From assembly GCF_034366625.1 (NCBI RefSeq), contig NZ_JAXMIH010000015.1, positions 62,001-126,000 on the forward strand: 64,000 bases of DNA, given 5' to 3'. Below are positions 8,721 through 45,123 of this stretch, in pieces. Each line of letters opens with the position of its first letter. Position 1 is the first letter of the stretch. The notes under the pieces were generated by a model. The model had not been told where the DNA came from, ran no database searches, and saw only the letters and a list, made by a program, of their open reading frames with translations. The position numbers and the translations under genes are program-made. This DNA comes from Prosthecobacter sp. (GTDB lineage Bacteria > Verrucomicrobiota > Verrucomicrobiia > Verrucomicrobiales > Verrucomicrobiaceae).

Positions 8721-8745
8721 AACGTGCCAAAGCTTGGCTGGCCTG

Positions 8746-9999: not shown

Positions 10000-10060
10000 G
10001 CGCCAGATTTGCTGTATGTTATCGGAGTTTCAGGCACAATCAGAATCATAAAGAGCATTT

Positions 10061-10522
10061 ATGCAGCAGGCAAATTGGCATTCCAATCGTTCGGGAGAAT
10101 CCAGGGTGATCCTGCTGGTGGAGGATCATGACATCTATCGTGAGGTGGTGCGTGCGGCCTTGGGCAAATACCTGCCCGACTTTGAGATGGTGGAGGCGGG
10201 GAGTGTGGCATCGGCCCTCCCGATTCTGCAGTCGCACAAGGTTGATGTGATGGTCATCGACATGACGCTGCCGGACGGATCTGCGGTTGATTTAGTGGAA
10301 CAGGCCCGGTGCTTCATCGAGCAGGGTGTGAAGGTGATTGTGTTCAGCAGTCATTCGACCGCCGACATGCTGCCGGTCCTGAGCCGCCGTGATGTGCATG
10401 GCTATGTCTCGAAGGAGCAGGGCCTGAAGATGCTGTCAGAGGTGATTTTGGAGACTTGCAGTGGGGAAATGCCTGAGAGGATGGGATTGGCGGAACGGGA
10501 GCCGGCCCTGCGAATGACTTGA
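10061..10522 (+). CDS. Single-domain response regulator (receiver only)
   Basis: 153 aa consisting of a CheY-like receiver (about residues 15-130) and a short tail. Conserved residues are visible: acidic pair E20-D21 (LLVEDHD), phospho-acceptor D67 (VIDMTLPDG), switch Ser in VIVFSSHS, and K in YVSKEQ. There is no output domain. It lies 31 bp upstream of the giant hybrid kinase at 10554, same strand, so co-expression is likely. It probably shuttles phosphate in a relay with that kinase or the neighbours. Confidence 0.88.
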   Translation: MQQANWHSNRSGESRVILLVEDHDIYREVVRAALGKYLPDFEMVEAGSVASALPILQSHKVDVMVIDMTLPDGSAVDLVEQARCFIEQGVKVIVFSSHSTADMLPVLSRRDVHGYVSKEQGLKMLSEVILETCSGEMPERMGLAEREPALRMT

Positions 10523-10553
10523 CCCTCCATCTGATTCATTATCCATTTAAACC

Positions 10554-13500: not shown

Positions 13501-14693
13501 AGGGTTTCATGACCGATGTGACCGAAAAACGCCGCATGGAATCGCAGTTCCTGCGCGCGCAACGCATGGAGAGCATCGGCACGCTCGCGGGAGGTGTGGC
13601 GCATGATTTGAACAACGTGCTCACGCCGATCCTGATGTCGCTCACGATCCTGCGCATGAAGCTGGCTCAGCCGCGTGATGTCGAGCTGCTGAACGCCATG
13701 GAGAACAGTGCGAACCGCGGCGCGGACATGGTGAAGCAGATTTTGAGTTTTGCGCGTGGTGTCGAGGGCCGCAGTCTGCTGCTGAGGCCCAAAGATGTGA
13801 TCCAGGAGATGGAACAGCTCATTCATGAAACCTTCCCCAAATCCATCCGGTGCAGTATTGCCTGCGCAGAGGAGGCGTGGAATGTGGAGGGTGATCCCAC
13901 GCAGCTCCATCAGGTGCTGCTCAATCTCAGCGTCAACGCCCGGGATGCCATGCCTGAAGGCGGTGAACTGGGCATTTCCGCAGGCAATGTCGTGGTGGAT
14001 GAACAGTTTGCCAGCATGCATCCTGATGCGCAGCCGGGGCCCCATGTGGTGTTTGAAGTGCGGGACACCGGCATGGGCATTCCCCCCGAGGTGCGGGATC
14101 GTATTTTCGATCCGTTCTTCACCACCAAGGAAATGGGCAAGGGCACCGGGTTGGGCCTGTCCACCACGCTGGGCATCGTCAAATCACATCATGGGTTCAT
14201 TGATCTCACCAGCCGGGTGGGGAAGGGGAGCGTGTTCCGCATTTATCTGCCCGCAAAGACTGCCGTGGAGAATCCTCCAGCACGGCCGGTTGAGTCCCCG
14301 CGGCGACTAGGACAAGGAGAACTCATTCTCGTCGTGGATGATGAAGCGGCTATTCTTACCGCGACCAGGCACACGTTGGAAGCATTCGGATATCAGGTGG
14401 CCACGGCATGCGATGGCACGGATGCCATCGCCACATTCCTGAAGAGCGAAGACAAACCCGTGGCAGTCATCACCGACATGATGATGCCCAACATGGATGG
14501 GCCGGCGCTGATCCAGGCGCTGCTCAAAATCCAGCCTGGACTGCCGGTCATCGGAGCGAGCGGACTTAACCATCAAATGCAGGCGCAGGTGAACAGCTTG
14601 GGAGTGAGGCACTTCCTGCGCAAACCATACAACGCCGATGCCCTGCTAGATGCGCTCGGCGAGGTGCTGAAGCAGTCACGTATGAGGGGCTGA
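10554..14693 (+). CDS. Multi-PAS/GAF hybrid sensor histidine kinase
   Basis: 1379 aa, predicted cytoplasmic (no TM helix seen). Order by pattern: PAS (about 15-130), PAS (145-265), PAS (280-400), GAF (410-555), PAS (565-685), GAF (700-865), PAS (875-995), HisKA with [11 protein letters not shown] (His near 1016), HATPase with N-box (NARDAMP), G1 (DTGMGIP) and G2 (GKGTGLGLS), then a receiver ([22 protein letters not shown]). All catalytic motifs are intact. The kinase/receiver half is closely similar to that of the convergent gene at 14705-18703, only 11 bp away. The ligands are unknown; so many PAS and GAF domains suggest integration of redox, gas or small-molecule cues. Confidence 0.93.
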
Positions 14694-14704
14694 CACGATC
14701 ACGT

Positions 14705-17700
14705 TCACTTTTCACCCAGAACGTGCTGCAATGACCGTAAAATGGTTTCAGCAGTGTAAGGCTTGGGCAGGAAGTGTTTCACACCCGCTCCGGCCGCCTT
14801 TGCGATGCTGCCATTGGAGGTGATGCCGCTGGCAGCGATGATGCGAACTTGGGGATTCATTTTCATCAGCACCTGAATGGTGGTGGAACCGTCCATGACC
14901 GGCATCATCATGTCTGTCAAAACTGCGGCGATTTCGTTTTGATGTTTTGAGTAGAGTGTCACTGCCTCCGCTCCATCTGCTGCTAGCAGCACACGATAAT
15001 TGTATGCCTCAAGCGTTTGACGCGTGATCTCACGCACAGACGCCTCATCATCGACGAGGAGAATGAGATCGTGATTGCCGCGCGGCAGGGGCCTCTCCTC
15101 GACGACCGGCAGTTCCACGACGGATACTGGCTGCGCCGGAAGATAAACATTAAAACGGGAGCCGTGCCCCGGCTCGCTGTAAACGCGGATGAATCCGCCA
15201 TGGCTCTTCACGATGGCCAGCGAAGTGGACAGGCCCAGACCGGTGCCCTTGCCGGGCCCCTTGGTGGTGAAGAAGGGGTCAAAGATTTTATGGAGGACTT
15301 CGCGAGTGATGCCCACACCATCATCTTCGACACTGATCAAGATGTGCGGTCCTTCACGGGCCTCGATGTTCATGGCGGCGTACTGCGTGTCGATCATGAG
15401 ATTATCCACGCTGATCGTGAGGGTGCCCCCGGCTGGCATGGCATCCCGGGCATTGACACAAAGATTGAGCAGCACTTGATGGATTTGCGTGGGATCGCCT
15501 GAGACGGTCCAGCTTTCGGGCAACTCCTGCATGCGGAGATGGATGTTTTTTGGGAAGGTGTCTCTGACGATGCGTGCCAGGTCTTGCATGAGGCGGCTGA
15601 TCTGCACGGGCATCTTCTGCCCTTCCACTCCTCGTGCAAAAGACAGCACCTGGTTGAGCATTTCCGCTCCACGGCTCGCACTGCTGGCGATCGTGCCGAG
15701 CGTTTCCCGGCAGGCAGGATCCGAGATGCGCAGTTTGAGCAGATCCACCGACATCATGATCGGGGTGAGGACGTTGTTGAGGTCATGAGCGATGCCACCC
15801 GCCAGCGTGCCAATGCTTTCCATGCGCTGGGAGCGGAGAATCTGATCTTCCAGCCGCTTTTTCTCTGTGATGTTTGTGTTGATGGCCAGGATGCATTTGG
15901 GACGGCCCGCAGCATCGCGGACGAGAGTCCAGCGTCCTTCCACAATCAGTTGCTCGCCTGCCTTGGTCATCTGCTGGATCTCGCCAGTCCATTCGCCGTT
16001 AGCGAGCACACGGGCGGTTATTTCTCTGAACTGCGCATCATCGTTGTAGAGCAGCTCGGACACCTTGTGTCCAACGGCCTCCTCGGCGGTCCAGCCGTAG
16101 AGATTCTCGGCGCTTTTATTCCAATAAGTGATGTTGTGGTCAAGGTCACGCACCAGAATGGCATCATTCGCCTTGTCGAGCAGTGAAGCCTGCTGGCGCA
16201 GCATCTCTTCGATCTGCCGGCGCTCCCATTGGGCGAGCACGAGGGAGATGAAATTAGCCAGTGACACGGCGAAACTTTGTTCTTCAGGTGCCCATGACCG
16301 CAGCGGGCCTACATGCTCATGACAGAGCACTCCAGCCAGAACGCCACCCACATGAAGCGGGGTGTCCAGCATGGAGGTGATGCCCAAGGGGGCGAGATAG
16401 TTGTCGGTGAATTCACTGGTGCGCGGGTCACAGCGCGCATCGTCTGCCGAGATCACTTCATTCTGCTTCAAGGCGCTGAAGTAGGCGGGATAATCGCCGC
16501 CACGCAGTTCAAGCCCCGAGGAATGACGTCCAAAAGACGTCTCATACAACTCCTGGCATACGATGGCGCTTCGATTTTGGTCAAACCGCCAGATGCTGAC
16601 ACGCGCCACCTCCATGGCATTTGCGATTTCTTCCGTGATTAAACGAAACGCCTCATCCAAATCAACAGCCTGCATCACACCACCACGCATCAGCCGAGCC
16701 AGCGCGGCTCGCTGCTTTTCATAGCGCAAATTGCTCTTCCACAGGCGGGTTTCGGCCTCTTTACGTGCGGTGATGTCGCGTTGGATGGCCACAAAATGAT
16801 GTGGTTTGCCTCCTGGGGCCGTGATCGGTACGATGTCAATCTCCACACAAAAGGAAGAGCCGTCCTTCTTGTGATTGATGAGTTCCTCCTTGACGGGGCG
16901 TCCCTTGGCAAGCGCAACGCGGATGCGATCAAGCGCAGCACAATCCGAGTCCGGCCCTTGCAGGAAGCGGGGGCTGCGGCCGATCGTTTCCTGCCGCGTG
17001 TAGCCGGTGTGCGCAGTGAAGGCATCATTCACAAAGACGATGCGCGGACCGGGTTCTCGAAGGGGCTCAGCCTCGGTGATCAGCACGACATCGTTAAGAT
17101 GCGCAACGCAGGTTTCAAGCAGCCGGAGCTGCTCTTGATTGCGGCGTGCCTCAGTGATGTCCTTGCAGAGAACGACCATGTTCAGCGCTGCCCCGGAATC
17201 ATCACGAATGATGGAAACACTGTTTTCCACCCAGGCAACATCTCCGTTTTTGCAGAGATAGCGCTTTTCAACAATGAAGTCGTTGATCTCCCCGGCGATC
17301 AACTGCTGGTTCAACTCCTGCTTGCGCGCCACATCGTCAGGGTGCGTGATGGAGACAAAGGATTTCCCGATCATCTCGTCCTCCTCATAGCCGGTGATGC
17401 GGCAGTACTGCTTGTTGATGTGGAGGATGCCCCCGTTCATGTCCGTGATGGCAAACCCCACGCTGGCATTCGCGAAAGCACGACGGAAACGCGCCTCGCT
17501 GGTCTTGAGCGCCTCCTCGGCCAGTTTACGATCCGTGATGTCATGCGCCGTGCCCACCATTTTCAATGGCCGCCCGGTGCTCTCATCCCGGAACAACTGG
17601 GCATCCTCGTGGATATGACGGACCTCGCCGTTTGGCAGGATGATCCGGTGGTCGATCGAATATCGACCTTGGGTGCGGATGGCTTCGCTGACGGCCTGCT

Positions 17701-18703
17701 GGATCATTTCCCGATCATCCGGATGAACGGCACGGAAGAAGTTGTCGTTGGTGGCTTCGATTCCGCCCACCTCATGGCCGAAGATGCGGAAGATCTCGTC
17801 AGACCAATGCAGAGTGTTGTTGTTCAGATCCTCCAGGTCGGACAATTCAAACTCCCAACTGCCGAAACGTGAAATCCGCTGAGCTGCCGACATGGTGGCC
17901 TCACTCTGGCGTAGTTGTTCTTCAACTTTCTTCCGTTCGGAAATATCCTGGGTGACGCTGAGCACCGAGATCACTTTTCCGTTCGAATCGTGCAGGGGAA
18001 CGGAATGCGTCTCAACCCAGATCAACCTGCCTTTGGTGCTGATCACGCGGAAAGTTTGCTGCCCTGCCTCACCCGCACACACCTGTTGATGAAGCAGGAG
18101 AAAAGCTTCCCGGTCATCTGGATGCACCAGATCGGCGACGTGCCGCCCTTCCACCTGGGCCAGCGATCCGGCTTCGATGATTTTCAAGCCGGCAGGGTTC
18201 ATTTCCCGCAGCCTTCCTTCGAGATCCACGACTTTCACGCACTCCGGCTCGTAATCAATGATCGCCCGCAGTTGCTCCTCGCTTTTGCGCAATTTCTGTT
18301 CGGCCTGCTTGCGCGTGGTGATGTCGATGCAGGTGATGAGCGCGCCTTCGATGTCATGAACTGACAGCGGAACGATGGAAGTTTCAATCCAGAGACTCCC
18401 GGTGGAAACCGGCAGGCATGATTCGATGCGAATACCTCCCGACTGACGGTCCAAAACTTTCCTGAGGGCACTCGCCCATCTGTCGGAGCCTTCCAGCAAG
18501 GCTCCGCACTTCCCAGCAAAAAAAACAAAGCAGTCACCGCCGTTTTCAGGCATTGGCAAATCACGATCTTCCGGTGTTTGGAAAGGATTCCACTCACCGT
18601 TCACCGCCTGAATGATGCCATGCGCATCCACCAGAATGACCAGGTGCCGTGGAAGGTCTTGTTCCCGCGCTTTCGACAAAGAATCAGATGCATCGGGCTT
18701 CAT
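14705..18703 (-). CDS. Multi-PAS/GAF hybrid sensor histidine kinase with LOV-like PAS lacking Cys
   Basis: 1332 aa from the ATG at 18703 (MKPDASDSL). A longer frame reaches 18925, but it would overlap the next gene and adds no domain. No TM helix. At least six PAS-type sensor domains precede a GAF domain (about 690-840) and a last PAS. Then HisKA ([13 protein letters not shown], His near 972), HATPase ([23 protein letters not shown]) and receiver (LVDDEA, LTDMMMPVMDG, LPKPY). One PAS near residue 575 has GRSPRFLQGPDSD, like the LOV signature GRNCRFLQG but without the photoactive Cys. It is tail to tail with its paralog at 10554-14693. Confidence 0.92.
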   Translation of the reverse strand: MKPDASDSLSKAREQDLPRHLVILVDAHGIIQAVNGEWNPFQTPEDRDLPMPENGGDCFVFFAGKCGALLEGSDRWASALRKVLDRQSGGIRIESCLPVSTGSLWIETSIVPLSVHDIEGALITCIDITTRKQAEQKLRKSEEQLRAIIDYEPECVKVVDLEGRLREMNPAGLKIIEAGSLAQVEGRHVADLVHPDDREAFLLLHQQVCAGEAGQQTFRVISTKGRLIWVETHSVPLHDSNGKVISVLSVTQDISERKKVEEQLRQSEATMSAAQRISRFGSWEFELSDLEDLNNNTLHWSDEIFRIFGHEVGGIEATNDNFFRAVHPDDREMIQQAVSEAIRTQGRYSIDHRIILPNGEVRHIHEDAQLFRDESTGRPLKMVGTAHDITDRKLAEEALKTSEARFRRAFANASVGFAITDMNGGILHINKQYCRITGYEEDEMIGKSFVSITHPDDVARKQELNQQLIAGEINDFIVEKRYLCKNGDVAWVENSVSIIRDDSGAALNMVVLCKDITEARRNQEQLRLLETCVAHLNDVVLITEAEPLREPGPRIVFVNDAFTAHTGYTRQETIGRSPRFLQGPDSDCAALDRIRVALAKGRPVKEELINHKKDGSSFCVEIDIVPITAPGGKPHHFVAIQRDITARKEAETRLWKSNLRYEKQRAALARLMRGGVMQAVDLDEAFRLITEEIANAMEVARVSIWRFDQNRSAIVCQELYETSFGRHSSGLELRGGDYPAYFSALKQNEVISADDARCDPRTSEFTDNYLAPLGITSMLDTPLHVGGVLAGVLCHEHVGPLRSWAPEEQSFAVSLANFISLVLAQWERRQIEEMLRQQASLLDKANDAILVRDLDHNITYWNKSAENLYGWTAEEAVGHKVSELLYNDDAQFREITARVLANGEWTGEIQQMTKAGEQLIVEGRWTLVRDAAGRPKCILAINTNITEKKRLEDQILRSQRMESIGTLAGGIAHDLNNVLTPIMMSVDLLKLRISDPACRETLGTIASSASRGAEMLNQVLSFARGVEGQKMPVQISRLMQDLARIVRDTFPKNIHLRMQELPESWTVSGDPTQIHQVLLNLCVNARDAMPAGGTLTISVDNLMIDTQYAAMNIEAREGPHILISVEDDGVGITREVLHKIFDPFFTTKGPGKGTGLGLSTSLAIVKSHGGFIRVYSEPGHGSRFNVYLPAQPVSVVELPVVEERPLPRGNHDLILLVDDEASVREITRQTLEAYNYRVLLAADGAEAVTLYSKHQNEIAAVLTDMMMPVMDGSTTIQVLMKMNPQVRIIAASGITSNGSIAKAAGAGVKHFLPKPYTAETILRSLQHVLGEK

Positions 18704-18887
18704 GGCTGGTCGTTTTAGTTTAGCACTAAAACACCGTTCAAGGCGGCATGCCAGCAGTCTCTCTTCCGCAGTGACTGTGAGAGCATGCCATCCCGATGAT
18801 GTTACTCGTGCGGATGAAAACGGAGCAGATAAAAGCTTTACTGCTCGGAAGCGCAAGCGTGGTTTCGTCCGGATAAGCCGGCAGGAA

Positions 18888-20684
18888 TTACAGTCTTGCT
18901 GGGCGCAGCAGGGCCTGGCCCACAATATTGAGCAGTTCCACCATGCCGAAAGGCTTGGGAAGAAAGTTTTCTCCAGCCTTCAGTTCCTTCGCATTGTTCA
19001 GGCTGGTCGGCGAATACCCGCACGTGAAGATGACCGGGAGTGTGGGATCTTCGGTGGAAAGGGCTTTTTCCAGATCAAACCCGCTGACTCCACCAGGCAG
19101 CTTGACGTCAATGATCGCCAGTTTGATGACGGATGAATTGCTGCGCCATTGCGTCCAGGCTTCATTGGCATCGGCGGCAGTGAGAACTTTGTGTCCCTGG
19201 CTGGTGAGTACGTATTCCATCACCTGGCGTACAGAATCTTCGTCATCGACGATCAGAATGGTCGAGGCTTCATCCTCAGAGGAGGTGTCCAGGAGTTTTT
19301 TATCCGGCGTGGCGGGTGTCTGGATGGCTCCGCTGGCAACCGGCAGACAGATTGAAAACTCGGTGCCGACCTCTGGCACGCTGCTGACATTGATCCATCC
19401 GTGCTGAAGACGGACCAATCCTTGGACAAGGATCAAGGAGATGTCTGCGCCGCCGTCTTGACCGGGTGACAGTTGGGATGCATCAAACAACCGTGAGAGT
19501 TCGACAGGATTCATGCCTTTTCCCGTGTCAGAGAAAATCATGGCCACATAGTCTCCTGGTGTTGCGTCAGGATGCACCTGGCATGCTGTCTTGACGTCGG
19601 GAATGGCAAACGGCCTGGTTTGAACCATCAACCTGCCGCCCGCTGGCATGGAGTCGCGGGCGTGGATGAGAAGGTTGAAAATAATCTGCTCCAAGGATGC
19701 CAGATCTGCCATGACGCACGGCAAATCGGGCGTGTGACTGATCTGTATGCTGATTTGCTCTCCCAAGGCCCGCTGCAGCAATGCTGCCTGCGCATCAATG
19801 ATCTGCCCCAGATGCAGCGGCGCTGGTTGCAGGTATTCGCGTCGATTGAATGTCACAAACTGCGCGGTGACTCCAGCCGCACGTTGCGTGGCGACGAGAA
19901 GTTCCTTCAGAGTGGATGGCACGTTGGAATTTCCTTCATGGGCCAGAGTTACTTCCAGATGGCCTTGGATGACGGTGAGGTAGTTGTTAAAAAAATGAGC
20001 CATCGCATCAGCGAAACGGCCGGTAGATTCCAAGCGCTGATTCCGGCACAACTTGTCCTCCAGTTGCTTGCGATGATCCTGCTCAAGCCTGAGCCGGTTG
20101 CTGACATCTTCGAAGCGAGTGGTCACCTCCAGAAGCTGGGCGTTCAGGCTGAGATTGCGGTGGGAAGTCTGATGCTCGGCACCATGTTTGCTCGTGAGCG
20201 TGCGGATGAGCTGGGTGATCTCGAAGGGAACAAGCCTGAACTTGAGCACCAAGAGCCGATGATTGGATCCCAGCTCGATAGGGATTTGTTCAAACGACTC
20301 CAGTTGGGACACTGCATGAAGCACCACGTGCAAGTCTCGCTGGATCTGCCACATACGTTTAATGATCTGCCGGTAGTCTTTACCATAAAACAGGCGGCCA
20401 TCCATGATCACCAGCGAAAATGGCTTATGTGCCTGCACCGCAGATTCAACCAAAGTCAGTGCTTCTTTCTCGTTCATTGAGCAGACCACATCAGGTGGTG
20501 AGACATCTGGTCTGGCTTGATTGGTTTGCTTTGCCGTGGCCAGGGGGGCGGAGGAAGTTCCGCTGTGATCCATGTTCTGTAGAGCGTGAGAAATGCGCAG
20601 ATCTTCTTTGATCGTTCGCTCTTCACTCACAATCAGAATCCGACTGCAAGTGGCTAGGTTAGGCTGAATGGTATTTAGATACAT
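18888..20684 (-). CDS. Hybrid histidine kinase with damaged catalytic motifs
   Basis: 598 aa. The N-terminal region (about 10-160) looks like a degenerate receiver (ILIVSEE, FSLVIMDGRLF). A coiled linker leads to HisKA at about 215-285. The H-box reads MAHFFNNYLTVI, so the acidic residue after H230 is replaced by Phe. In the ATPase domain the N-box has His where Asn is expected (LLIHARDSMP, H341). G1 is present (DTGKGM), but the G2 Gly-rich lid is lost (GADISLILVQ). The C-terminal receiver (about 480-595) keeps LIVDDED, AIIDVKLPGG and LPKPFG. It may be a pseudokinase or a pure phosphatase/relay protein. It is upstream of and co-directional with the kinase at 14705-18703. Confidence 0.87.
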   Translation of the reverse strand: MYLNTIQPNLATCSRILIVSEERTIKEDLRISHALQNMDHSGTSSAPLATAKQTNQARPDVSPPDVVCSMNEKEALTLVESAVQAHKPFSLVIMDGRLFYGKDYRQIIKRMWQIQRDLHVVLHAVSQLESFEQIPIELGSNHRLLVLKFRLVPFEITQLIRTLTSKHGAEHQTSHRNLSLNAQLLEVTTRFEDVSNRLRLEQDHRKQLEDKLCRNQRLESTGRFADAMAHFFNNYLTVIQGHLEVTLAHEGNSNVPSTLKELLVATQRAAGVTAQFVTFNRREYLQPAPLHLGQIIDAQAALLQRALGEQISIQISHTPDLPCVMADLASLEQIIFNLLIHARDSMPAGGRLMVQTRPFAIPDVKTACQVHPDATPGDYVAMIFSDTGKGMNPVELSRLFDASQLSPGQDGGADISLILVQGLVRLQHGWINVSSVPEVGTEFSICLPVASGAIQTPATPDKKLLDTSSEDEASTILIVDDEDSVRQVMEYVLTSQGHKVLTAADANEAWTQWRSNSSVIKLAIIDVKLPGGVSGFDLEKALSTEDPTLPVIFTCGYSPTSLNNAKELKAGENFLPKPFGMVELLNIVGQALLRPARL

Positions 20685-29252: not shown

Positions 29253-32200
29253 ATGCCGGAAAATGCGGAGAAGCAGCACGATCCTGACGCCACTATCCCG
29301 ATGGCGGCTCCGGTGCCGACGGCGAGTGCCAAGGAGTCGCCTGATCTGCCGCTGCCAGAGGAGCTGACCTTGCTGCTTCCGCATGGAAACTACTCCGTGG
29401 AAGGATTTCTCGGCCAAGGCGGCATGGGGGCGGTGTACAAAGGCACACAGGTGCGTTTGCAGCGTCAGGTGGCCATCAAGATCATGCGGCGTGACCAGGG
29501 CAAGGACCATGGCTTCGAGGAGCGCTTCCGCCGCGAGGCGCTGGCGCTGGCACAGCTCAACCATCCAAACATCGTCAATGTCATCGACTACGGCGAGGCG
29601 GGGCCGGATTACCTCTACATCGTGATGGAGTTCGTCGATGGCACCGATCTGGTGGGCGTGATCCGCAGTGGTGAGATGACGCAGGAGACGGCGCTCAAGC
29701 TGCTGCCGCAGATCTGTGACGCGCTGCAGTTCGCGCACGACAACGGCATCGTGCATCGTGACATCAAGCCCGCGAACATCCTGCTCACGCGGGATGGTCG
29801 CATCAAGATGGCGGATTTCGGGCTGGCGAAGCGTTTTGATGTGAACAGTACCTTCCAAACGCAGACCGGCGCCGGCATGGGCACGCCGGACTACGCCGCA
29901 CCGGAGCAGTTTGATCCCAACGGCAACGTGGACCACCGCGCGGACATCTATGAGCTGGGCGTGATGATTTACCAGATGGTCACCGGCCAGCTTCCACGTG
30001 GCGCGTGGAAACCGCCGTCGGAAAAGGCGGATGTGGATACGCACTGGGACAAAATCGTCTCCCACGCCCTGCAAACCGATCCGAGTGACCGCTACGCGAG
30101 CGTCAGCGAGATCAAGACGGACATCAGCAGCATTACGGCAGCGCCGGGCGCGCAAGGCGGTGTGACAGGCCGTGCGACCAGCCGGAAAAGCGGATTCAGC
30201 GGCACGCTCGGAGGCTCCACCACCGTGCTGACACAGGCAGGCGGGCGCAGCGCCACCGTGGTGCAGGCTCCAGCGCCGCCGCGCTCGAAAAAGCCGCTCG
30301 TCTTTGGGCTGGCAGGCGCGTTGGTTTTGTCCGCAGCGGTGGGATTCCTGATGTGGAACAAGGATCGGCCTTCGGTGGAACCAACCGTTCATGTCGTGTC
30401 CAGAACATGGACGCCGCCCGCTCCCACAGTCACTATCGGCACTGAATGGACCGATCTCATCCCGCGCATCAAGCCGGAGCGCGATGCGATTCGCGGTGGC
30501 TGGACCGTGAATGAGAAAGGCCTCACCGCGCAGCGCGCCCAATGGGCCATGTGCAACATCCCGGTGCAAGATCCCGGTACGGACTACGACCTGCGCTACA
30601 AGGTCACTCGGGGTGAAGGCATGCACCTCGCCATGTTCTTTCTCTTCCGCAAAGGCGACACCGGTGGCTTCGCGCCGGTGGACTACGTTGATGCCAGCAA
30701 GCCGGAATTCAGCAATGGCATGCGCATCGCCGGTCTCGAGTCCGTCCAGAACACCATCACCTTCCGACCCGGCGGCGTCGGTGGCTGGCAGAAGGAATGG
30801 CTGCCGCGCGGCAAGACCTGCACCGTGCTTCTTCAAGTGCGGGAAAAGGAAGTGCGCCTGAGCGTGGATGACGTGGAAGCCTTCCGCTGGCAGGCCGACT
30901 GGTCGCAGATACGGCAGCGGCCTAACGCGGAGCATCCCATGTTTAAAGACACCTCCGGCAGCCCCTTCTTCGGCGTCGGCATCTTCGACTGCGAGGCCGT
31001 CTTCCACAGCATCGAGATGCGGCGCATCGGCGAGACTACGGTACCCATTGCCCCGATCGGTGAACCAGGAAGCATCCCGCACCTGCTCACCTCGCCGGAC
31101 TACGAGTGGAGCGCACCGGTCAATCTGGGGCCGCTCGTCAACAGTCCGACCGTTGACCTTGGTCCGATAGTCTCGCCCGATGGACTGCATCTCGTGTTCA
31201 GTTCGAAACGGGAAGGTGACGGCGAGCTTTTTGAATCTCGTCGGTCCAGCGCGGACGCCCCCTGGGGGAAGCCGACGCTCGTGTTTCCGTCCATCGAAGA
31301 TGGCCATCAAGACCAGCCTTGGATGAGCGTGGATGAACTGAGGCTGTTCTATCACGCCACTGCAGGACCGGGGCATCACGGGCGGCTGCCGGAAGGAGAC
31401 GTCTATTTTCGACAACGTGCGGCCAAGGATCAGCCTTGGCAGCCGCCGGTAAACCTTGGATCGGGCATCAACAGTCTGGGGCACGATGTGGCTCCACGGC
31501 TTTCCAATGACGAACGGACGCTCCTTTTCACCTCCATCCGCCCTGGAGGACAAGGTATCTGGGATGTCTGGCGCACTCGCAGGACATCGCGAGAGGCTGC
31601 TTTTGGTCGGGCGGAGAACGTCGGATCGGAACTCAACTCGGCCGGCTCTGATTTCCATGCCGCTTTCGCAGCGGACGACCGGACGCTGCTCTTCCTGCGT
31701 GGTGGTTCGGATATCAAGGTTTGTCGTTTGTTCATGGCCGCGCCGGATGCCAGTGGCCAATACCAAACCACTGCTCTCGATTTTCCTGTGACTGGAAAAT
31801 TGAGTAATCCCTGGCTGTCCGCCGATGGCCGCACCCTGTGGTTCGCCTGGGATGGCCCGGGAAGTCTGGGAGACATGGACTTGTGGGAAATCCGGCGCGT
31901 GCCCAAGGCGAAGAAGAATCCACCCACACCCGCTGCCGCCACGAAGGACACACCATTTGAGAACACCCTCGGCATAAAGTTCGTCCCCGTGCCCATCACC
32001 GGCGGGCCGACGGACGGGAAGCGGGTGCTCTTCAGCGTGTGGGAGACGCGCGTGCAGGACTACGAGGCGTTTGTGAAGGAGACAAAGCGCGAGTGGTTGC
32101 CTGTGATGTTCTCTCAGGCACCCACTCATCCGGCGTTGAATATAAGCTGGGATGATGCGCAGGCTTTTTGTGCATGGTTAACGGAGCGAGAACTGAAAGT

Positions 32201-32726
32201 GGGCCGCTTGCGGGAAAACGAACGGTATCGTCTGCCGAGCGACCATGAATGGAGTTGTGCGGTTGGAATAGGCACACAGGAAAGCCCCACCATGCTGCCG
32301 CTGGCCAAAGACCAGCGCATCAATGATGTCTATACTTGGGGCACCGAATGGCCGCCGCCTGCGGGGGCGGGAAACTTTGCTGGAGAGGAACTGAAGGCGG
32401 TGCTCGCAGCCGGGGAGTATGACTACATCACAACGCCGATCAGCGGCTATAACGATGGCTACAACGAAACAGCACCGGTGGGTTCGTTCCGAGCCAACTC
32501 GCTTGGCCTGCACGATCTCGGCGGCAATGCCTGGGAATGGTGTGAGGACTGGTTTGACAATACCCACGAGGCACGGGTGCTTCGTGGCACGGCGTGGGCA
32601 CACTTTGAGCGTCTGAACCTGCTCTCCTCTAAACGAAGTCGCGGCAGGGTTGGCGTCGCGTTGCCGCCCTTCATCGGTTTCCGCTGTGTGCTGGAATTCT
32701 CCGTTGCATCAGCCGGGAAGCAGTAA
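29253..32726 (+). CDS. Ser/Thr protein kinase fused to PD40 repeats and FGE-sulfatase domain
   Basis: 1157 aa. Cytoplasmic PknB-type kinase at residues about 45-290 with Gly loop LGQGGMGAVYKG, K76 (VAIKIM), HRDIKPAN (H168), DFG near 188 and the P+1 region GTPDYAAPEQF: a complete active site. TM helix at about 350-370 (LVFGLAGALVLSAAVGFLMW). Outside the membrane: a beta-rich domain (about 400-590), PD40/TolB-like repeats (610-880; VSPDGLHLVFSSK, LSNDERTLLFTS), then an FGE/SUMF1 (C-type-lectin-like) domain at 900-1150 (LPSDHEWSCA, GNAWEWCEDWFD). Kinase-FGE fusions occur in other PVC bacteria, including, as I recall, chlamydial Pkn1. The FGE domain may bind rather than oxidise substrate. Confidence 0.92.
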   Translation: MPENAEKQHDPDATIPMAAPVPTASAKESPDLPLPEELTLLLPHGNYSVEGFLGQGGMGAVYKGTQVRLQRQVAIKIMRRDQGKDHGFEERFRREALALAQLNHPNIVNVIDYGEAGPDYLYIVMEFVDGTDLVGVIRSGEMTQETALKLLPQICDALQFAHDNGIVHRDIKPANILLTRDGRIKMADFGLAKRFDVNSTFQTQTGAGMGTPDYAAPEQFDPNGNVDHRADIYELGVMIYQMVTGQLPRGAWKPPSEKADVDTHWDKIVSHALQTDPSDRYASVSEIKTDISSITAAPGAQGGVTGRATSRKSGFSGTLGGSTTVLTQAGGRSATVVQAPAPPRSKKPLVFGLAGALVLSAAVGFLMWNKDRPSVEPTVHVVSRTWTPPAPTVTIGTEWTDLIPRIKPERDAIRGGWTVNEKGLTAQRAQWAMCNIPVQDPGTDYDLRYKVTRGEGMHLAMFFLFRKGDTGGFAPVDYVDASKPEFSNGMRIAGLESVQNTITFRPGGVGGWQKEWLPRGKTCTVLLQVREKEVRLSVDDVEAFRWQADWSQIRQRPNAEHPMFKDTSGSPFFGVGIFDCEAVFHSIEMRRIGETTVPIAPIGEPGSIPHLLTSPDYEWSAPVNLGPLVNSPTVDLGPIVSPDGLHLVFSSKREGDGELFESRRSSADAPWGKPTLVFPSIEDGHQDQPWMSVDELRLFYHATAGPGHHGRLPEGDVYFRQRAAKDQPWQPPVNLGSGINSLGHDVAPRLSNDERTLLFTSIRPGGQGIWDVWRTRRTSREAAFGRAENVGSELNSAGSDFHAAFAADDRTLLFLRGGSDIKVCRLFMAAPDASGQYQTTALDFPVTGKLSNPWLSADGRTLWFAWDGPGSLGDMDLWEIRRVPKAKKNPPTPAAATKDTPFENTLGIKFVPVPITGGPTDGKRVLFSVWETRVQDYEAFVKETKREWLPVMFSQAPTHPALNISWDDAQAFCAWLTERELKVGRLRENERYRLPSDHEWSCAVGIGTQESPTMLPLAKDQRINDVYTWGTEWPPPAGAGNFAGEELKAVLAAGEYDYITTPISGYNDGYNETAPVGSFRANSLGLHDLGGNAWEWCEDWFDNTHEARVLRGTAWAHFERLNLLSSKRSRGRVGVALPPFIGFRCVLEFSVASAGKQ

Positions 32727-38802: not shown

Positions 38803-41298
38803 ATGATTGAGGAACTTCAGCAATTCGGCAGCCTCTCAGTGGCGCATCGAACCGGTGGTGCACCGGTGGAATTGGCGCGTTCCAAGGATGAGGTGGTTTT
38901 TTTAGCCTTCGACAACAGGATTCGACGTCTGGTGGAACTGCACGTGTTAAGGGGTGGGAACACTTTGGAGGCGGCAATGAAGCGTTCGGCTTTTGACCGT
39001 GCGCGCCAAGCTTCGGAGATTCGCGGGCATGCATTCATGCGTATTTTGGAAGTGGGTGAGGACCAGGGATTGGTCTATTATACCAGCAATCTCAATGATG
39101 GTGAGTTTGTCGAAGACTATGCCAAGAGGCGTGGGGCGGTGGCTCCCGCAACGGCGCTTGCGATGGTTTACCAGCTATTGGACGATCTGCTTCAGTTGCA
39201 GGGGTATCAGCGACTGGTCTCACGCATGCATCTGGATCGTGTGTTAGTCACGACTCTGGAGGACACATTCCTGCAACTCCGTGTGTTTGATTATGGTCTG
39301 TCGCAGATGGATGCGGGAACTGAGGAGCAGAGCGGTGCGCGACTTGTAGTGGAGGCTTGCCGGTTGATTTTTCTCCTGCTTACGGGGCAGTCATATTACG
39401 GTGAAAACCCTGATCGTTTCCCTGCATTGACACAGCTTCCCATGAGCCTGCGCACTGCGGTTAGGACCGCTCTCGCTGATCCTGCCAATGCTCCGGCTTC
39501 CATCGAGAAGTTGCGCGATGACGTGCGCGAGGCATTCAGTGCTCTTTCGAGCAATATCAAGGCCCGCAATTTTCGTAAACACCTCGTGGTGAATGCCTCG
39601 CTGCTGCCCCAGTCGCAACTTCAGGAACTGCTGCTCGAGAACGTGCCGGTCGAAACCATTTTGGGAACACGCTTTCGCGTTGAGGATGCCGATCACACAC
39701 GACGTTATCCCTTCTCGATTCCTGCGATCAACACGAAAGCGGAGCAGCCCGTCACGGTTCATCTGCTGCCTCCGTCGCGAATTGTGGAGAAATCACGCTA
39801 TGAGGCAGTTCCTTTGCAGATGTGGCGCTTCAATCCTGAACGGCACCCCAATATCCTGCGTTCCCTGAGTTTGTGGGAGAGTCCTGACTGGACGTTTCTG
39901 ACCGAGGAGCGTGAGCCAGGCTTTGCGCTAAGCCGCCTTATGGCAGAGCGTATCACGCTGAATCCTGCCGAGGTGACGGTGCTCATGCGCCAGGTTCGTG
40001 CCGGTCTGGATCAGGCGGTGGAGTGTGGTGTGCAGCGTGTGGATTTGCATCCTTCCAACATTCTTTTGCGCGTGGGGAAAAACGGGCCGTTGCTGGCCCG
40101 TGAACTGGAACGATTGATGCAGAAGCGCCTGGATGCCTGGCCTTCCTTTGTGGTGAAGCTGCGTCCGCATATGACGATGCGCAGTCTTTACGAGCCGCTC
40201 CTCGTTGACATGGACATCACAGAGGGGCAGTTGCAGGAAGAGCATCTGCAGGATCGTGATTTTCGGCATCGTTCTTTTGTGATGCTTGCAGCCTATTTGC
40301 TGACTGGAGAACGTCAGAGCGGAGGTGTTCCGCAGTTTTCCGAATCTGTGCCGGATGCAGCCGCCGCGTATGTGCGTGAGTGCATTGAACTGACCCGTCG
40401 CGTTGGGAAAACACCCAGCCCCGGCGAATTCATCGATAAGTTCGAGGGCTTGCTTTCTGCGCCGACGGTTGATCTGGCCACACGCCTGCGTGGTAATGCC
40501 GTGGCGAAGGAAGAAATGGAAAGCGCGGGTTCAGTTTCTGACTATGAGGATGATTGGTCCGCAAGTAATTCGGAGGCCAGCAATTTTGATGACGTCGGAA
40601 TGTCTCCCATCAAGCGCGGTATCAAAACGCATGATTTCAACCCGTTGCTCGATCAGAAGCGTGGAAAGCCCTGGGGGGCTTTGGCTGCTGCTGCGGCGGT
40701 GATTCTGGGCATCGGTGCTTGGATGTTTATGGGAGGTAATGATCCGGCGAAACCGGCGGCGGAGGCGCAATCTTCAGAAGCCGAAGGACCTGCAAACACC
40801 AAAGAGGGCACACAGCAGGCTGACAAAAAGCCGGTTGCTGTGAAACAGCCAACGATTGCCGTCAGTCAAAGCAAACCGATTTCGGATCAATCTGCAGAGA
40901 TCAAGCCTCAGGTGCCATCCTCTGCCGTGGTTCCCCCCAAGCTGTCCGCGGCTGTTGCTGTGGCGGTGCCGAATCCCGACAGGCGGCAGCCTCTTTCGGC
41001 TCCTGTGGCTGAGGTGAAGCCGATAACGAAGGATGCTGTGGAAAAACCCGCGGAAACAGTGGCCGTAAACAATACTGGGGGGCCTGCTGCGGTCAGCCAG
41101 AAGCCCGCCGCTCCAATAACACCTGCGCCTGCCGTCAAGCCTCCCGAAAAAGATCCCATCACCATTCGTCGTGCCATCGTTCCCACCAAGGAAGAGATTG
41201 ACCGTATGAAACAGGGGCACGTCGAAAATAGAACTGGGCAATTGCCGGCCATGTCCACAGCATCGCCTTTGCCGCCGAAACGAAACGAAAAACCGTGA
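38803..41298 (+). CDS. Membrane-anchored protein with two degenerate kinase-like domains
   Basis: 831 aa from the ATG at 38803; a GTG at 38782 would add 7 residues. Kinase-like region 1 (about 10-240): hinge-like VYYTSNLNDGEFVEDYAKRRG, catalytic-loop-like SRMHLDRVLV and DFG-like VFDYGLS, but no Gly loop or HRD. Kinase-like region 2 (about 285-570): VTVHLLPP where VAxK is expected, HPNILRSLSLW, and catalytic loop QRVDLHPSNILL, which keeps Asp and Asn but has no DFG. Both are probably pseudokinases. TM helix at about 625-645 (ALAAAAAVILGIGAWMFM), then a Pro/Ala/Val-rich disordered tail outside the membrane. It lies 265 bp upstream of btubA. Partner and function are unknown. Confidence 0.72.
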   Translation: MIEELQQFGSLSVAHRTGGAPVELARSKDEVVFLAFDNRIRRLVELHVLRGGNTLEAAMKRSAFDRARQASEIRGHAFMRILEVGEDQGLVYYTSNLNDGEFVEDYAKRRGAVAPATALAMVYQLLDDLLQLQGYQRLVSRMHLDRVLVTTLEDTFLQLRVFDYGLSQMDAGTEEQSGARLVVEACRLIFLLLTGQSYYGENPDRFPALTQLPMSLRTAVRTALADPANAPASIEKLRDDVREAFSALSSNIKARNFRKHLVVNASLLPQSQLQELLLENVPVETILGTRFRVEDADHTRRYPFSIPAINTKAEQPVTVHLLPPSRIVEKSRYEAVPLQMWRFNPERHPNILRSLSLWESPDWTFLTEEREPGFALSRLMAERITLNPAEVTVLMRQVRAGLDQAVECGVQRVDLHPSNILLRVGKNGPLLARELERLMQKRLDAWPSFVVKLRPHMTMRSLYEPLLVDMDITEGQLQEEHLQDRDFRHRSFVMLAAYLLTGERQSGGVPQFSESVPDAAAAYVRECIELTRRVGKTPSPGEFIDKFEGLLSAPTVDLATRLRGNAVAKEEMESAGSVSDYEDDWSASNSEASNFDDVGMSPIKRGIKTHDFNPLLDQKRGKPWGALAAAAAVILGIGAWMFMGGNDPAKPAAEAQSSEAEGPANTKEGTQQADKKPVAVKQPTIAVSQSKPISDQSAEIKPQVPSSAVVPPKLSAAVAVAVPNPDRRQPLSAPVAEVKPITKDAVEKPAETVAVNNTGGPAAVSQKPAAPITPAPAVKPPEKDPITIRRAIVPTKEEIDRMKQGHVENRTGQLPAMSTASPLPPKRNEKP

Positions 41299-41563
41299 CC
41301 TTAGCCGTTGCCCGCACTTCGTTATTGCACTTGGATCAACGTGGGATTCCTCACGAAAGAACGGAATTTGCTTGGACTCCCGGCGCACTCACAGGTAAAA
41401 GTACATGTGTGGAGATGAGTGCCGCAAACAACGCCGCATTAATTGCAAAGTCCGGGGCATGCCGGATGCAGGATCGGCGGCTTGGCGTTGCTGGCCGTGT
41501 TTCTACACATCATTGCAGGAAGTAACACATCACATTAGAAACCGCGAAAACTAGGAGAGGCTG
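41299..41563 (+). promoter_or_regulatory. Leader region of the btub operon with strong ribosome-binding site
   Basis: 265 bp before btubA. A strong Shine-Dalgarno sequence AGGAGAGG lies at 41553-41560. No clear sigma70 promoter: the closest is TTGGAC at 41372 and TAAAAG at 41396 with an 18-bp spacer, a poor match. The half-site AATTGCAA is at 41441-41448. A 76-codon ORF (41295-41525) looks non-coding. Confidence 0.45.
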
Positions 41564-42979
41564 ATGAAGGTCAACAACACAATCGTCATTTCAATCGGTC
41601 AGGCGGGCAATCAAATTGCCGCGTCTTTCTGGAAAACCATCTGCCAGGAGCACGGCATTGATCCGCTGACGGGTCAGACCGCGCAAGGGCAGGCTCCTCG
41701 CGGCAACTGGAGCGCGTTCTTCACCAAGCTGGGTGAGTCAACTTCCGGCAGCTATGTGCCGCGTGCCATCATGGTCGATCTTGAGCCCAGCGTGATCGAA
41801 AACGTGAAGGCAACCTCGGGTTCCTTGTTCAATCCGGGAAATCTCATCAGCCGCACCGAAGGCGCGGGGGGCAACTTTGCCGTTGGTTATCTTGGCGCCG
41901 GTCGCGAAGTGCTGCCAGAAGTCATGGGACGGCTCGATTCCGAAATCGACAAGTGTGACAACGTCGGCGGCATCATCGTACTACATGCCACGGGTGGCGG
42001 TTCAGGCTCTGGTTTTGGTGCGCTACTCATTGAATCCGTCAAGGAGAAGTATCCTGAGTTCCCTGTGTTGAGCTGCGCCGTGCTGCCATCTCCGCAGGTT
42101 TCCTCGGTCGTTACCGAACCCTACAACACCGTCTTCACACTCAACACGTTGCGCCGTTCCGCCGACGCCTGCTTGATCTTTGACAACGAGGCGCTGTTCG
42201 AACTCGCGCATCGCAAATGGAACATCGAAAGCCCCACGGTGGATGACTTGAATCTGCTGATTACCGAAGCGCTGGCAGGTTTGACCGCCTCCATGCGTTT
42301 CAGCGGTTTCCTCACCGTCGAAATCAGCCTGCGTGAACTGCTCACCAACCTTGTGCCACAGCCTTCACTGCATTTCCTCATGTGTGCTTTCGCCCCGCTC
42401 ACACCGCCTGACCGTAGCAAGTTCGAGGAAATGGGTGTCGAGGACATGATTCGCAGTTTGTTCGACAACGGTTCCGTCTTTGCCGCCTGTTCGCCCATGG
42501 AGGGGCGCTTCCTTAGCACTGCAGTGCTCTACCGTGGCATCATGGACGACAAGCCGCTCGCGGACGCCGCCCTCGCCGCGATGCGTGAGCAACTTCCTCT
42601 CACCTACTGGATTCCGACGGCTTTCAAAATCGGATACGTCGAGCAGCCCGGCATTTCGCACCGCAAGAGCATGGTGCTTCTCGCCAACAACACCGAGATT
42701 GCCCGTGTACTTGACCGCATTTGCCACAATTTCGACAAGCTCTGGCAACGCAAGGCCTTCGCCAACTGGTACCTCAATGAAGGCATGTCCGAGGAGCAGA
42801 TCAATGCACTTCGTGCTTCAGCCCAGGAACTCATCCAGAGCTATCAAGTCGCCGAGGAAAGCGGAGCCAAGGCCAAGGTGCAGGACAGCTCGGCTGACAT
42901 TCCGCGCGGAAACGCCAGCACGGATGACAGTCGCAGCGGCATGAGTCTGCGTGATCTCGTCGATCGTCGTCGTGCATAA
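41564..42979 (+). CDS. btubA: Bacterial tubulin BtubA
   Basis: 471 aa, full length for BtubA. It is a true tubulin rather than FtsZ: N-terminal GTP-binding loop SIGQAGNQIAASFW, the tubulin signature as G144-GGSGSG-G150 in the T4 loop, NTLRRSADAC and the tubulin-type domain 2 (NLVPQPSLHFLMCAFAPL). BtubA pairs with BtubB to form GTP-dependent protofilaments and small bacterial microtubules in the cytoplasm of Prosthecobacter. A strong ribosome-binding site lies upstream. The C-terminus (MSLRDLVDRRRA) is basic, unlike the acidic tails of eukaryotic tubulins. First gene of btubA-btubB-bklc. Confidence 0.98.
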   Translation: MKVNNTIVISIGQAGNQIAASFWKTICQEHGIDPLTGQTAQGQAPRGNWSAFFTKLGESTSGSYVPRAIMVDLEPSVIENVKATSGSLFNPGNLISRTEGAGGNFAVGYLGAGREVLPEVMGRLDSEIDKCDNVGGIIVLHATGGGSGSGFGALLIESVKEKYPEFPVLSCAVLPSPQVSSVVTEPYNTVFTLNTLRRSADACLIFDNEALFELAHRKWNIESPTVDDLNLLITEALAGLTASMRFSGFLTVEISLRELLTNLVPQPSLHFLMCAFAPLTPPDRSKFEEMGVEDMIRSLFDNGSVFAACSPMEGRFLSTAVLYRGIMDDKPLADAALAAMREQLPLTYWIPTAFKIGYVEQPGISHRKSMVLLANNTEIARVLDRICHNFDKLWQRKAFANWYLNEGMSEEQINALRASAQELIQSYQVAEESGAKAKVQDSSADIPRGNASTDDSRSGMSLRDLVDRRRA

Positions 42980-43015
42980 CAACATCAATTCAAGGTAACA
43001 GAGAAACAACAGTTT

Positions 43016-43020
43016 GGAGG
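43016..43020 (+). promoter_or_regulatory. Ribosome-binding site deciding the GTG start of btubB
   Basis: GGAGG lies 7 nt before the GTG at 43028. No ATG is suitably placed, so this strong site supports the GTG start. Confidence 0.8.
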
Positions 43021-43027
43021 AACACCC

Positions 43028-44305
43028 GTGAGAGAGATTCTGAGCATCCATGTCGGACAATGTGGCAACCAGATTGCCGACCGCTTCTGGCGTCTGGTAC
43101 TTCGTGAGCATGGCCTGACTGAGGCTGGAACACTGAAAGAAGGCGGCTCTGCTACTGCTGCGAATGCAAACCTGGAGGTCTTCTTCCATAAAGTCCGTGA
43201 CGGGAAGTACATCCCCCGTGCCATCTTGGTGGACCTCGAACCTGGTGTTATCGCCCGTATCGAAGGCGGCGACATGGCCCAGCTCTTTGATGAAAGCTGC
43301 ATCATCCGCAAAATACCCGGTGCCGCTAACAACTGGGCACGTGGCTACAATGTCGAAGGCGAGCGCATCATCGACCAGATCATGAACGTGATCGACGCTG
43401 CGGTCGAAAAAACCAAGTCTCTGCAGGGCTTCCTCATGACCCATTCCATCGGGGGCGGTTCTGGCTCCGGCTTGGGTTCGCTCATTCTGGAGCGTCTGCG
43501 CCAGGCCTATCCGAAGAAGCGTATCTTCACCTTCTCCGTCGTTCCTTCGCCTCTCATCTCTGACTCCGCCGTCGAGCCCTACAATGCGGTGCTCACCCTC
43601 CAACGCATTCTCGACAATGCCGACGCCGCCGTGCTGCTCGACAACGAGGCGCTCTTCCGCATTGCCAAGTCCAAGCTGCACCGCAGCCCGAACTACATGG
43701 ACCTCAACCACATCATCGCTCTCATCATGAGTTCGGTGACCGCGTCGCTGCGTTTCCCTGGCAAGTTGAACACCGATCTGAGTGAATACGTGACCAACCT
43801 TGTGCCGTTCCCGGGCAATCATTTCCTCACTGCCTCCTTCGCACCCATGCGTGGGCCAGGCCAGGAAGGACAGGTGCGCATCAATTTCCCTGATATTGCT
43901 CGTGAAACTTTCTCTCAGGACAACTTCACTGCCGCCATTGATTGGACCAACGGCGTTTATCTTTCCGCCTGTGCCCTGTTCCGTGGCGATGTGAAGGCCA
44001 AGGAAGTGGAGGAAAACATGGCCGCCATCCGCAAAGGCCTCAATTTTGCCAGTTACGTGCCAACCGGGGTCAAGCTCGGTGTGGCCGAGACTGCGCCCGA
44101 AGGTTTCGCCTCCAGCGGCCTCGCTCTCGTCAATCACACCGGCATTGCCGCTGTGTTTGAGCGCCTCATCAGCAACTTCGACATCATGTTCGACAACCAT
44201 GCTTACACGCACTGGTATGAGAACAATGGGGTTACACGCGACATGATGGCGCACGCACGTAACACCATCGCCAATCTTGCCCAATCTTATCGCGACGCCA
44301 GCTAA
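43028..44305 (+). CDS. btubB: Bacterial tubulin BtubB
   Basis: 425 aa, full length, GTG start. N-terminal loop SIHVGQCGNQIADRFW is almost identical to eukaryotic tubulins. T4 signature G142-GGSGSG-G148 (HSIGGGSGSGLGS). The T7 region keeps the activating N-x-D-x-x-E pattern (KLNTDLSEYVTNLVPFP), as in alpha-tubulin, so it should stimulate GTP hydrolysis on the neighbouring subunit. VEPYNAVLTLQ and FDNHAYTHWYE are further tubulin hallmarks. It forms the heterodimer with BtubA encoded 48 bp upstream. The bklc gene begins 9 nt after its stop. Confidence 0.98.
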   Translation: MREILSIHVGQCGNQIADRFWRLVLREHGLTEAGTLKEGGSATAANANLEVFFHKVRDGKYIPRAILVDLEPGVIARIEGGDMAQLFDESCIIRKIPGAANNWARGYNVEGERIIDQIMNVIDAAVEKTKSLQGFLMTHSIGGGSGSGLGSLILERLRQAYPKKRIFTFSVVPSPLISDSAVEPYNAVLTLQRILDNADAAVLLDNEALFRIAKSKLHRSPNYMDLNHIIALIMSSVTASLRFPGKLNTDLSEYVTNLVPFPGNHFLTASFAPMRGPGQEGQVRINFPDIARETFSQDNFTAAIDWTNGVYLSACALFRGDVKAKEVEENMAAIRKGLNFASYVPTGVKLGVAETAPEGFASSGLALVNHTGIAAVFERLISNFDIMFDNHAYTHWYENNGVTRDMMAHARNTIANLAQSYRDAS

Positions 44306-44313
44306 GCCGGTTT

Positions 44314-45123
44314 TTGCACGGCTCAGGCCCGCCACCAACCTTAACCCCAATTGTGGATACTGCTCTGGAGCGTCAAATCGCCTCCGCCTCCCGCAGCGTT
44401 GAGGAGGCGCGACGGCTTGCGTATCACGATCCGGTCCGGGTTGGAGCACTGGTGGAACAGATCAGTGTCCTGGCCGATTTGCGGCAGAAGGAGGGTGATT
44501 TCCGCAAGGCAGAGTCCCTCTATCGTGAGGCGCTTTTCCGCGCCCAAGAACTGCGCAGACAGGATCCCGACCTGCTCACCGGCATTTATTCGCTCCTGGC
44601 ACATTTGTATGATCGCTGGGGACGCATGGACAAAGCGGCGGAATTCTACGAAAAAGCGCTTTCCATCAGTGTCGATAACGGCTTGGACGACAGCGACAAG
44701 GTTGCCACGATCAAAAACAACCTTGCCATGATCTTCAAGCAGCTCCGTCAGTTCGAAAAGGCGGAGGGCTATTACTGCGAGGCTCTCGAAACCTTCCAGC
44801 GTATTGATGGCGAGCAAAGTTCCCGTGTCGCCTCTGTTTACAACAACCTTGGCGTTCTCTACTACAGCAGCATGGATGTGGATCGCGCCCAGGCCATGCA
44901 CGAGCGGGCGCTGGCCATTCGGCAAAACCTCAACGAAAGCCAGATGGATCCTGCGGATCTGTCCCAGACCTTCATCAACTTGGGGGCGGTGTACAAAGCC
45001 GCTGGCGATTTCCAAAAAGCCGAGGCCTGTGTGGATCGCGCCAAACGCATTCGTGCGGCGATGAACGGCTATCATCCCAATCCACGCCGTTCTGCATCCT
45101 TGCTGATCGACAAGAGCCTGTGA
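44314..45123 (+). CDS. bklc: Bacterial kinesin-light-chain-like TPR protein (BtubC)
   Basis: 269 aa with five TPR units of about 42 residues (GDFRKAESLYREAL, GRMDKAAEFYEKAL, RQFEKAEGYYCEAL, VDRAQAMHERAL, GDFQKAEACVDRA), the period and NNLA/NNLG pattern seen in kinesin light chains. The protein from Prosthecobacter is reported to bind bacterial tubulin polymers and lipid. No ATG fits the start. TTG at 44314 gives the longest frame, 9 nt after the btubB stop, without a ribosome-binding site; GTG at 44353 is an alternative. Expression probably depends on coupling to btubB. It ends 26 bp from the convergent nagZ. Confidence 0.92.
   Translation: MHGSGPPPTLTPIVDTALERQIASASRSVEEARRLAYHDPVRVGALVEQISVLADLRQKEGDFRKAESLYREALFRAQELRRQDPDLLTGIYSLLAHLYDRWGRMDKAAEFYEKALSISVDNGLDDSDKVATIKNNLAMIFKQLRQFEKAEGYYCEALETFQRIDGEQSSRVASVYNNLGVLYYSSMDVDRAQAMHERALAIRQNLNESQMDPADLSQTFINLGAVYKAAGDFQKAEACVDRAKRIRAAMNGYHPNPRRSASLLIDKSL

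Follow-up and report, generated by a model that had tools for sequence, protein, structure and literature searches.

Were the bacterial tubulin genes of Prosthecobacter and its relatives acquired recently, species by species, or were they inherited and then lost in many lineages? This question was left from studies of 2007 and 2011 (PMC1845146, PMC3232192), and it is raised again by a btubA-btubB-bklc locus in a 64,000-nucleotide stretch of DNA (hereafter, the window) from a Prosthecobacter sp. genome of 6.65 Mb in 30 contigs. The question has become directly testable, because some of the about 70 relatives compared with the host carry fossils of tubulin loss and a gene linked to the operon provides an independent tree. 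We consider it very likely that, taken as a whole, the locus would encode a BtubA/B mini microtubule with a Bklc tether and an upstream pseudokinase-like protein (PK) as partner, its genes having descended vertically with repeated loss.

An intact bacterial tubulin operon

The features of the locus are as follows, in window coordinates:

38803..41298, + strand: PK (pseudokinase-like), two kinase-like domains, one predicted membrane helix and a proline-rich tail (AlphaFold/Foldseek, linkage, co-occurrence)
41345..41405, + strand: block conserved within the PK-btubA gap, perhaps a promoter or operator (identity among relatives)
41564..42979, + strand: btubA, bacterial tubulin A, 471 aa, ATG start (970 bits to 2bto BtubA; Pfam Tubulin and Tubulin_C; dN/dS 0.012-0.019)
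43016..43020, + strand: Shine-Dalgarno GGAGG ahead of btubB (read from sequence)
43028..44305, + strand: btubB, bacterial tubulin B, 425 aa, GTG start (849 bits to 7quq/2btq BtubB; NTDLSE catalytic loop; dN/dS 0.018-0.024)
44353..45123, + strand: bklc, TPR protein (bacterial kinesin light chain), 256 aa, probable GTG start (522 bits to 5o01; dN/dS 0.015-0.032)

The identification of these genes as btubA, btubB and bklc, made earlier in a sequence-only reading of the window, was confirmed by matches to solved BtubA, BtubB and Bklc chains. The best solved match of BtubA was 2bto (970 bits, E 1e-291), that of BtubB 7quq/2btq (849 bits, E about 1e-255) and that of Bklc 5o01 (522 bits, E 2e-156), and both tubulins matched Asgard and eukaryotic tubulins at about 400 bits or less. 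The top matches of the two tubulins are thus the solved BtubA and BtubB chains of P. dejongeii, which rules out FtsZ or TubZ identity, and both proteins scored above cut-off for Pfam Tubulin (PF00091) and Tubulin_C (PF03953). The nearest relative of this BtubAB pair was found in genome G052, where BtubA is 98% identical. The three genes lie on a single strand, separated by gaps of 48 and 47 bases, with open and intact reading frames, and by its gene arrangement the locus is an operon that includes bklc. The operon call of the sequence-only reading was therefore right, but it had overlooked PK, an upstream gene of the conserved neighborhood. It had also placed the bklc start at TTG 44314; the start is more probably GTG 44353, 13 codons downstream, because the solved Bklc (5o01) begins at that codon.

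Both tubulins carry tubulin rather than FtsZ signatures, as first read, with T1 loops GQAGNQIA and GQCGNQIA and a T4 loop GGGSGSG in each. The emphasis placed on GGGSGSG was borne out only in part: the motif is present in both subunits, but in BtubA it is nothing special, both forms being common among relatives (41 sequences read: GGGSGSG 23, GGGTGSG 16, unreadable 2). In BtubB, all 40 readable sequences have GGGSGSG. The alpha-like catalytic loop attributed to BtubB is indeed there (NTDLSE), and in BtubA, too, the aligned T7 catalytic position is occupied by glutamate (VEISLRE). The S9-S10 loop is short in both subunits (17 residues vs 25 in a eukaryotic alpha-tubulin), and this, together with the T7 glutamate in both, agrees with published statements (PMC3232192).

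An AGGAG motif precedes btubA at 41553-41557. The PK-btubA gap is variable except for the block at 41345-41405, which eight close relatives share at 92-98% identity and additional relatives at 86-93%. Its 17-base core occurs only once in the genome, and the block is a possible promoter or operator. A consensus scan scored no sigma-70-type promoter. As had been noted before, no mobile-element gene flanks the operon, the Pfam-identified neighbors being a DUF1501 protein, a GH3 enzyme, a TrpE-like enzyme and a HAD hydrolase. Elsewhere, the window encodes a Wzz/ParA-like protein (399-2636), an Exosortase EpsH family protein (5665-7254), two large, convergent multi-PAS histidine kinases (10554-14693 and 14705-18925) and a protein combining a protein kinase domain, WD40-like repeats and an FGE-sulfatase domain (29253-32726).

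Constraint on the operon and predicted function

Pairwise dN/dS was computed for btubA, btubB and bklc against five close relatives, and the three genes are under strong, purifying-level constraint (dN/dS 0.01-0.03; 0.05-0.06 against the more distant genome G024). Since these values are low, the genes are being maintained. It is extremely improbable that they are decaying or have fallen out of use in this host: such decay is visible in a relative (G043), and the operons of G055, G034 and G022 contain frame breaks, but the frames in the window are all intact and their dN/dS remains at 0.01-0.03. The breaks or stops in those close relatives affect btubB in G055 and btubA in G034 and G022, and may reflect either sequencing error or early decay.

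By homology to the P. dejongeii and P. vanneervenii proteins, BtubA/BtubB heterodimers would, in the presence of GTP, form mini microtubules built from four or five protofilaments. Such tubes lie close to the membrane of Prosthecobacter cells in vivo (PMC3232192). Bklc, for which the name BtubC is also already in use (PMC9871819), binds lipid and filaments (PMC5372463), and its homolog here would bind both, tethering the filament to the cytoplasmic membrane. The bitopic PK encoded upstream may serve as the membrane-side partner of this Bklc-filament assembly. Division is an unlikely role for BtubA/B because FtsZ is encoded separately, as part of an FtsA-FtsZ pair on another contig (C28) of the same genome.

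A pseudokinase-like gene accompanies the operon

The PK reading frame is open from GTG 38782. Its AlphaFold model has tandem kinase-like domains, which Foldseek pairs with kinases of the PknB/PknI type (E 3e-9), and an alignment of orthologs inspected by eye places non-lysine residues at the beta-3 lysine position of both domains. On this model, PK is predicted to be a pseudokinase that retains the kinase fold and has lost the catalytic lysine. A membrane helix is predicted at residues 626-644, approximately, and recurs in orthologs of the host's family (f1); no clear membrane helix was seen in the aligned PK forms of g11 and of a second family (f3). A single membrane helix followed by an extracytoplasmic tail is the architecture of PknB-type kinases, and the one predicted for PK.

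Using an ortholog threshold of E < 1e-80, PK was found in 40 of the 42 genomes of the host's family that carry btub genes and in 8 of the 25 that lack them (Fisher p 4e-8, tree-naive). The two btub-positive genomes in which PK was not found are G019 and G001; G001 is only 75% complete and its contig is short. PK lies immediately 5' of btubA in part of genus g1, in genera g3-g7 and, at 25-31% identity, in the second-family genome G178. Among the 36 genomes that allowed a comparison of all three genes, PK has this position in 23, which include other genera and G178. These associations suggest that PK belongs with btubA, btubB and bklc as a fourth member of the module, which would make it a candidate membrane partner for bacterial microtubules.

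PK might instead be a mere neighbor, held near btubA by slow rearrangement and standing outside the microtubule system. The tie between PK and the tubulins is statistical and positional, four btub-negative genomes (G015, G016, G029 and G054) still carry PK, and the gene evolves faster than the operon (dN/dS 0.05-0.11). Slow rearrangement accounts poorly, however, for the near-constant presence of PK in btub-positive genomes, including 13 in which the genes are unlinked and both were sampled, for linkage recurring in several genera and in family f3, and for the pairing of PK with bklc in g11 without tubulins. We find a mere-neighbor status rather doubtful and take PK as a probable module member.

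Distribution and probable descent with loss

In the host's family, BtubA was detected in 42 of 68 genomes, which represent 7 of 11 genera; most of the compared genomes are MAGs. When 387 genomes of the order were searched with BtubB, three from family f3 were gained, G100, G178 and G204 (66-72% identity), and a fuller search of that family placed btub genes in 3/75 genomes from two genera. The earlier statement that bacterial microtubules are known from very few genera was thus too narrow. No BtubB was found in the viral contigs, phages or plasmids searched, and a phylum-wide scan with PF03953, a model that misses the third tubulin described below, returned only members of the host's family. 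Tubulin matches in G350 were rejected as eukaryotic alpha-tubulin contamination, with protist-like ion-channel genes on the same contig, and an apparent BtubA-BtubB fusion in G204 proved to be a run of N. One genome, G014, has a second complete btubA-btubB-bklc set on the contig that carries its first (L070, C9:13216-16908), with products 80/83/66% identical to those of the window, and a MAG titled Akkermansia muciniphila (L034), apparently mislabelled, has an operon 98% identical to that of the window.

Gene trees were inferred with quick LG+G4 searches and include long branches in the PK set; over the 36 genomes present in both, the trees of BtubAB and of PK have 23 of 33 splits in common (label-shuffle mean 0.19, maximum 6), with a distance correlation of 0.95. 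Genomes in which PK is unlinked from the operon form one clade of the BtubAB tree (SH-aLRT 96), and therefore one relocation suffices. In the PK tree, the btub-negative genomes G043, G015, G029, G016 and G054 nest within btub-positive groups. In G043 (L161, C108), PK and an intact bklc are 521 bp apart, and the gap contains pieces of btubB (residues 118-143, 152-212, 212-232 and 363-400) at 74-82% identity (E 2e-37) and no btubA; by its content it is a fossil of tubulin loss. In G048 (L171, C184, about 8699-11186), a bklc of 95% identity comes directly after the upstream gene UP, and PK, btubA and btubB are missing; this arrangement could be a deletion that left bklc, or a chimeric join, since most of the genomes are MAGs. 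In genus g11 (L134, L135 and L162, including the single-contig genome G067), the next gene after PK is Bklc-like (36-38% identity) and tubulins are absent, and either loss of btubAB or its insertion between PK and bklc may explain this, both fitting the data.

Recent horizontal acquisition, separately in each species, was the view of earlier authors (PMC3232192), and would account for a patchy distribution (42/68 genomes of the host's family, 3/75 of f3) and for loci that differ within a genus. We now regard it as very unlikely, as agreement between the BtubAB and PK trees extends to genomes with unlinked PK, the change of chromosomal place amounts to one event on the BtubAB tree, and relatives preserve traces of loss (G043, G048). 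The agreement of the trees, the nesting of tubulin-less genomes and the observed fossil and apparent deletion together favor vertical descent with repeated loss over recent acquisition, and suggest this history for the btub genes of the family. From trees and synteny, the PK-btubA-btubB-bklc module would have descended vertically within the family, its operon separating from PK in a single event within one clade of the genus, and the module would have been lost several times, sometimes with PK and/or bklc remaining.

A phylogeny including archaeal tubulins, as the sequence-only reading had proposed, placed BtubB with Asgard AtubB, closest to the Heimdall form (support 99/94), in line with published work (PMC13394414). 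An old transfer into an ancestor, for instance from Asgard archaea, fits this BtubB-AtubB grouping.

A third tubulin and HTH-tubulin fusions

Outside the window, the f3 genome G178 encodes on one contig, in order, an XRE-type HTH protein, a third tubulin, a PK-like protein, BtubA and the start of BtubB. The HTH gene and third tubulin are also found in G100, without BtubA and with a truncated BtubB (the adjoining HTH-third tubulin loci of f3 are L076, 3473-4951, and L074, 12534-13805). At L074 in G100, the N-terminus of BtubB is missing behind a pseudokinase fragment and BtubA is absent, through either deletion or assembly error. The best solved match of the third tubulin is BtubA (E 1.5e-69; Pfam Tubulin 140 bits). 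The HTH gene is absent or weakly matched in the host's family, and the third tubulin had no relatives in viral contigs.

A divergent BtubA-like tubulin is present in 6 of 13 genomes of family f4 (loci include L094, 8792-10726; L139, L140, L092 and L093), with an N-terminal HTH segment in at least three of them. In G092, the fusion spans 644 aa, scores 39 bits for HTH_31 and 111 bits for Tubulin in Pfam, and is modeled (pLDDT 78) with BtubA as top fold match. By alignment, G086 and G077 also have an N-terminal HTH-like segment, and in the proteins of G083 and G101 this part is only a shortened one and the T4 loops are degenerate. In the tubulin tree, long branches on the BtubA side carry the third tubulin and the fusions.

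The third gene and the HTH fusion are seen directly in the sequences, and from them we infer DNA binding and function. Tentatively, and as a reading that we rate a little short of even, the inherited and repeatedly lost four-gene module may have given rise, through a BtubA-like copy, to a third tubulin that neighbors an XRE-type HTH gene in one related family and, in another, to an HTH-fused, putatively DNA-binding tubulin, which may act as a regulator or DNA-segregation factor and not as a microtubule subunit. The literature searched, outside which most subscription journals fall, contains no description of PK, of the loss fossils or of HTH-tubulin fusions, the last of which thus appear undescribed in those papers.

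Comparison with known systems

Taken by itself, the operon is another intact bacterial microtubule operon of an already known type. It resembles those of P. dejongeii, P. vanneervenii and P. debontii in genes, order, domain content and loops (chains 2bto, 2btq, 7quq and 5o01), and differs from the P. dejongeii operon, that of another species, in the T4 loop of BtubA (GGGSGSG in the window, GGGTGSG in P. dejongeii). The window's operon adjoins the PK gene, whereas in a clade of the genus typified by G018, G013 and G017 it sits away from PK. PK shares a predicted fold with the Hanks-type Ser/Thr kinases PknB and PknI but differs from them in having a pair of kinase-like domains, neither with the beta-3 lysine at the aligned position. 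BtubA and BtubB belong to the same superfamily as Asgard AtubA and AtubB, a link that has been published together with unnamed further Verrucomicrobia sequences (PMC13394414), and the window's BtubB matches Asgard AtubB at 404-407 bits, against 849 bits to BtubB.
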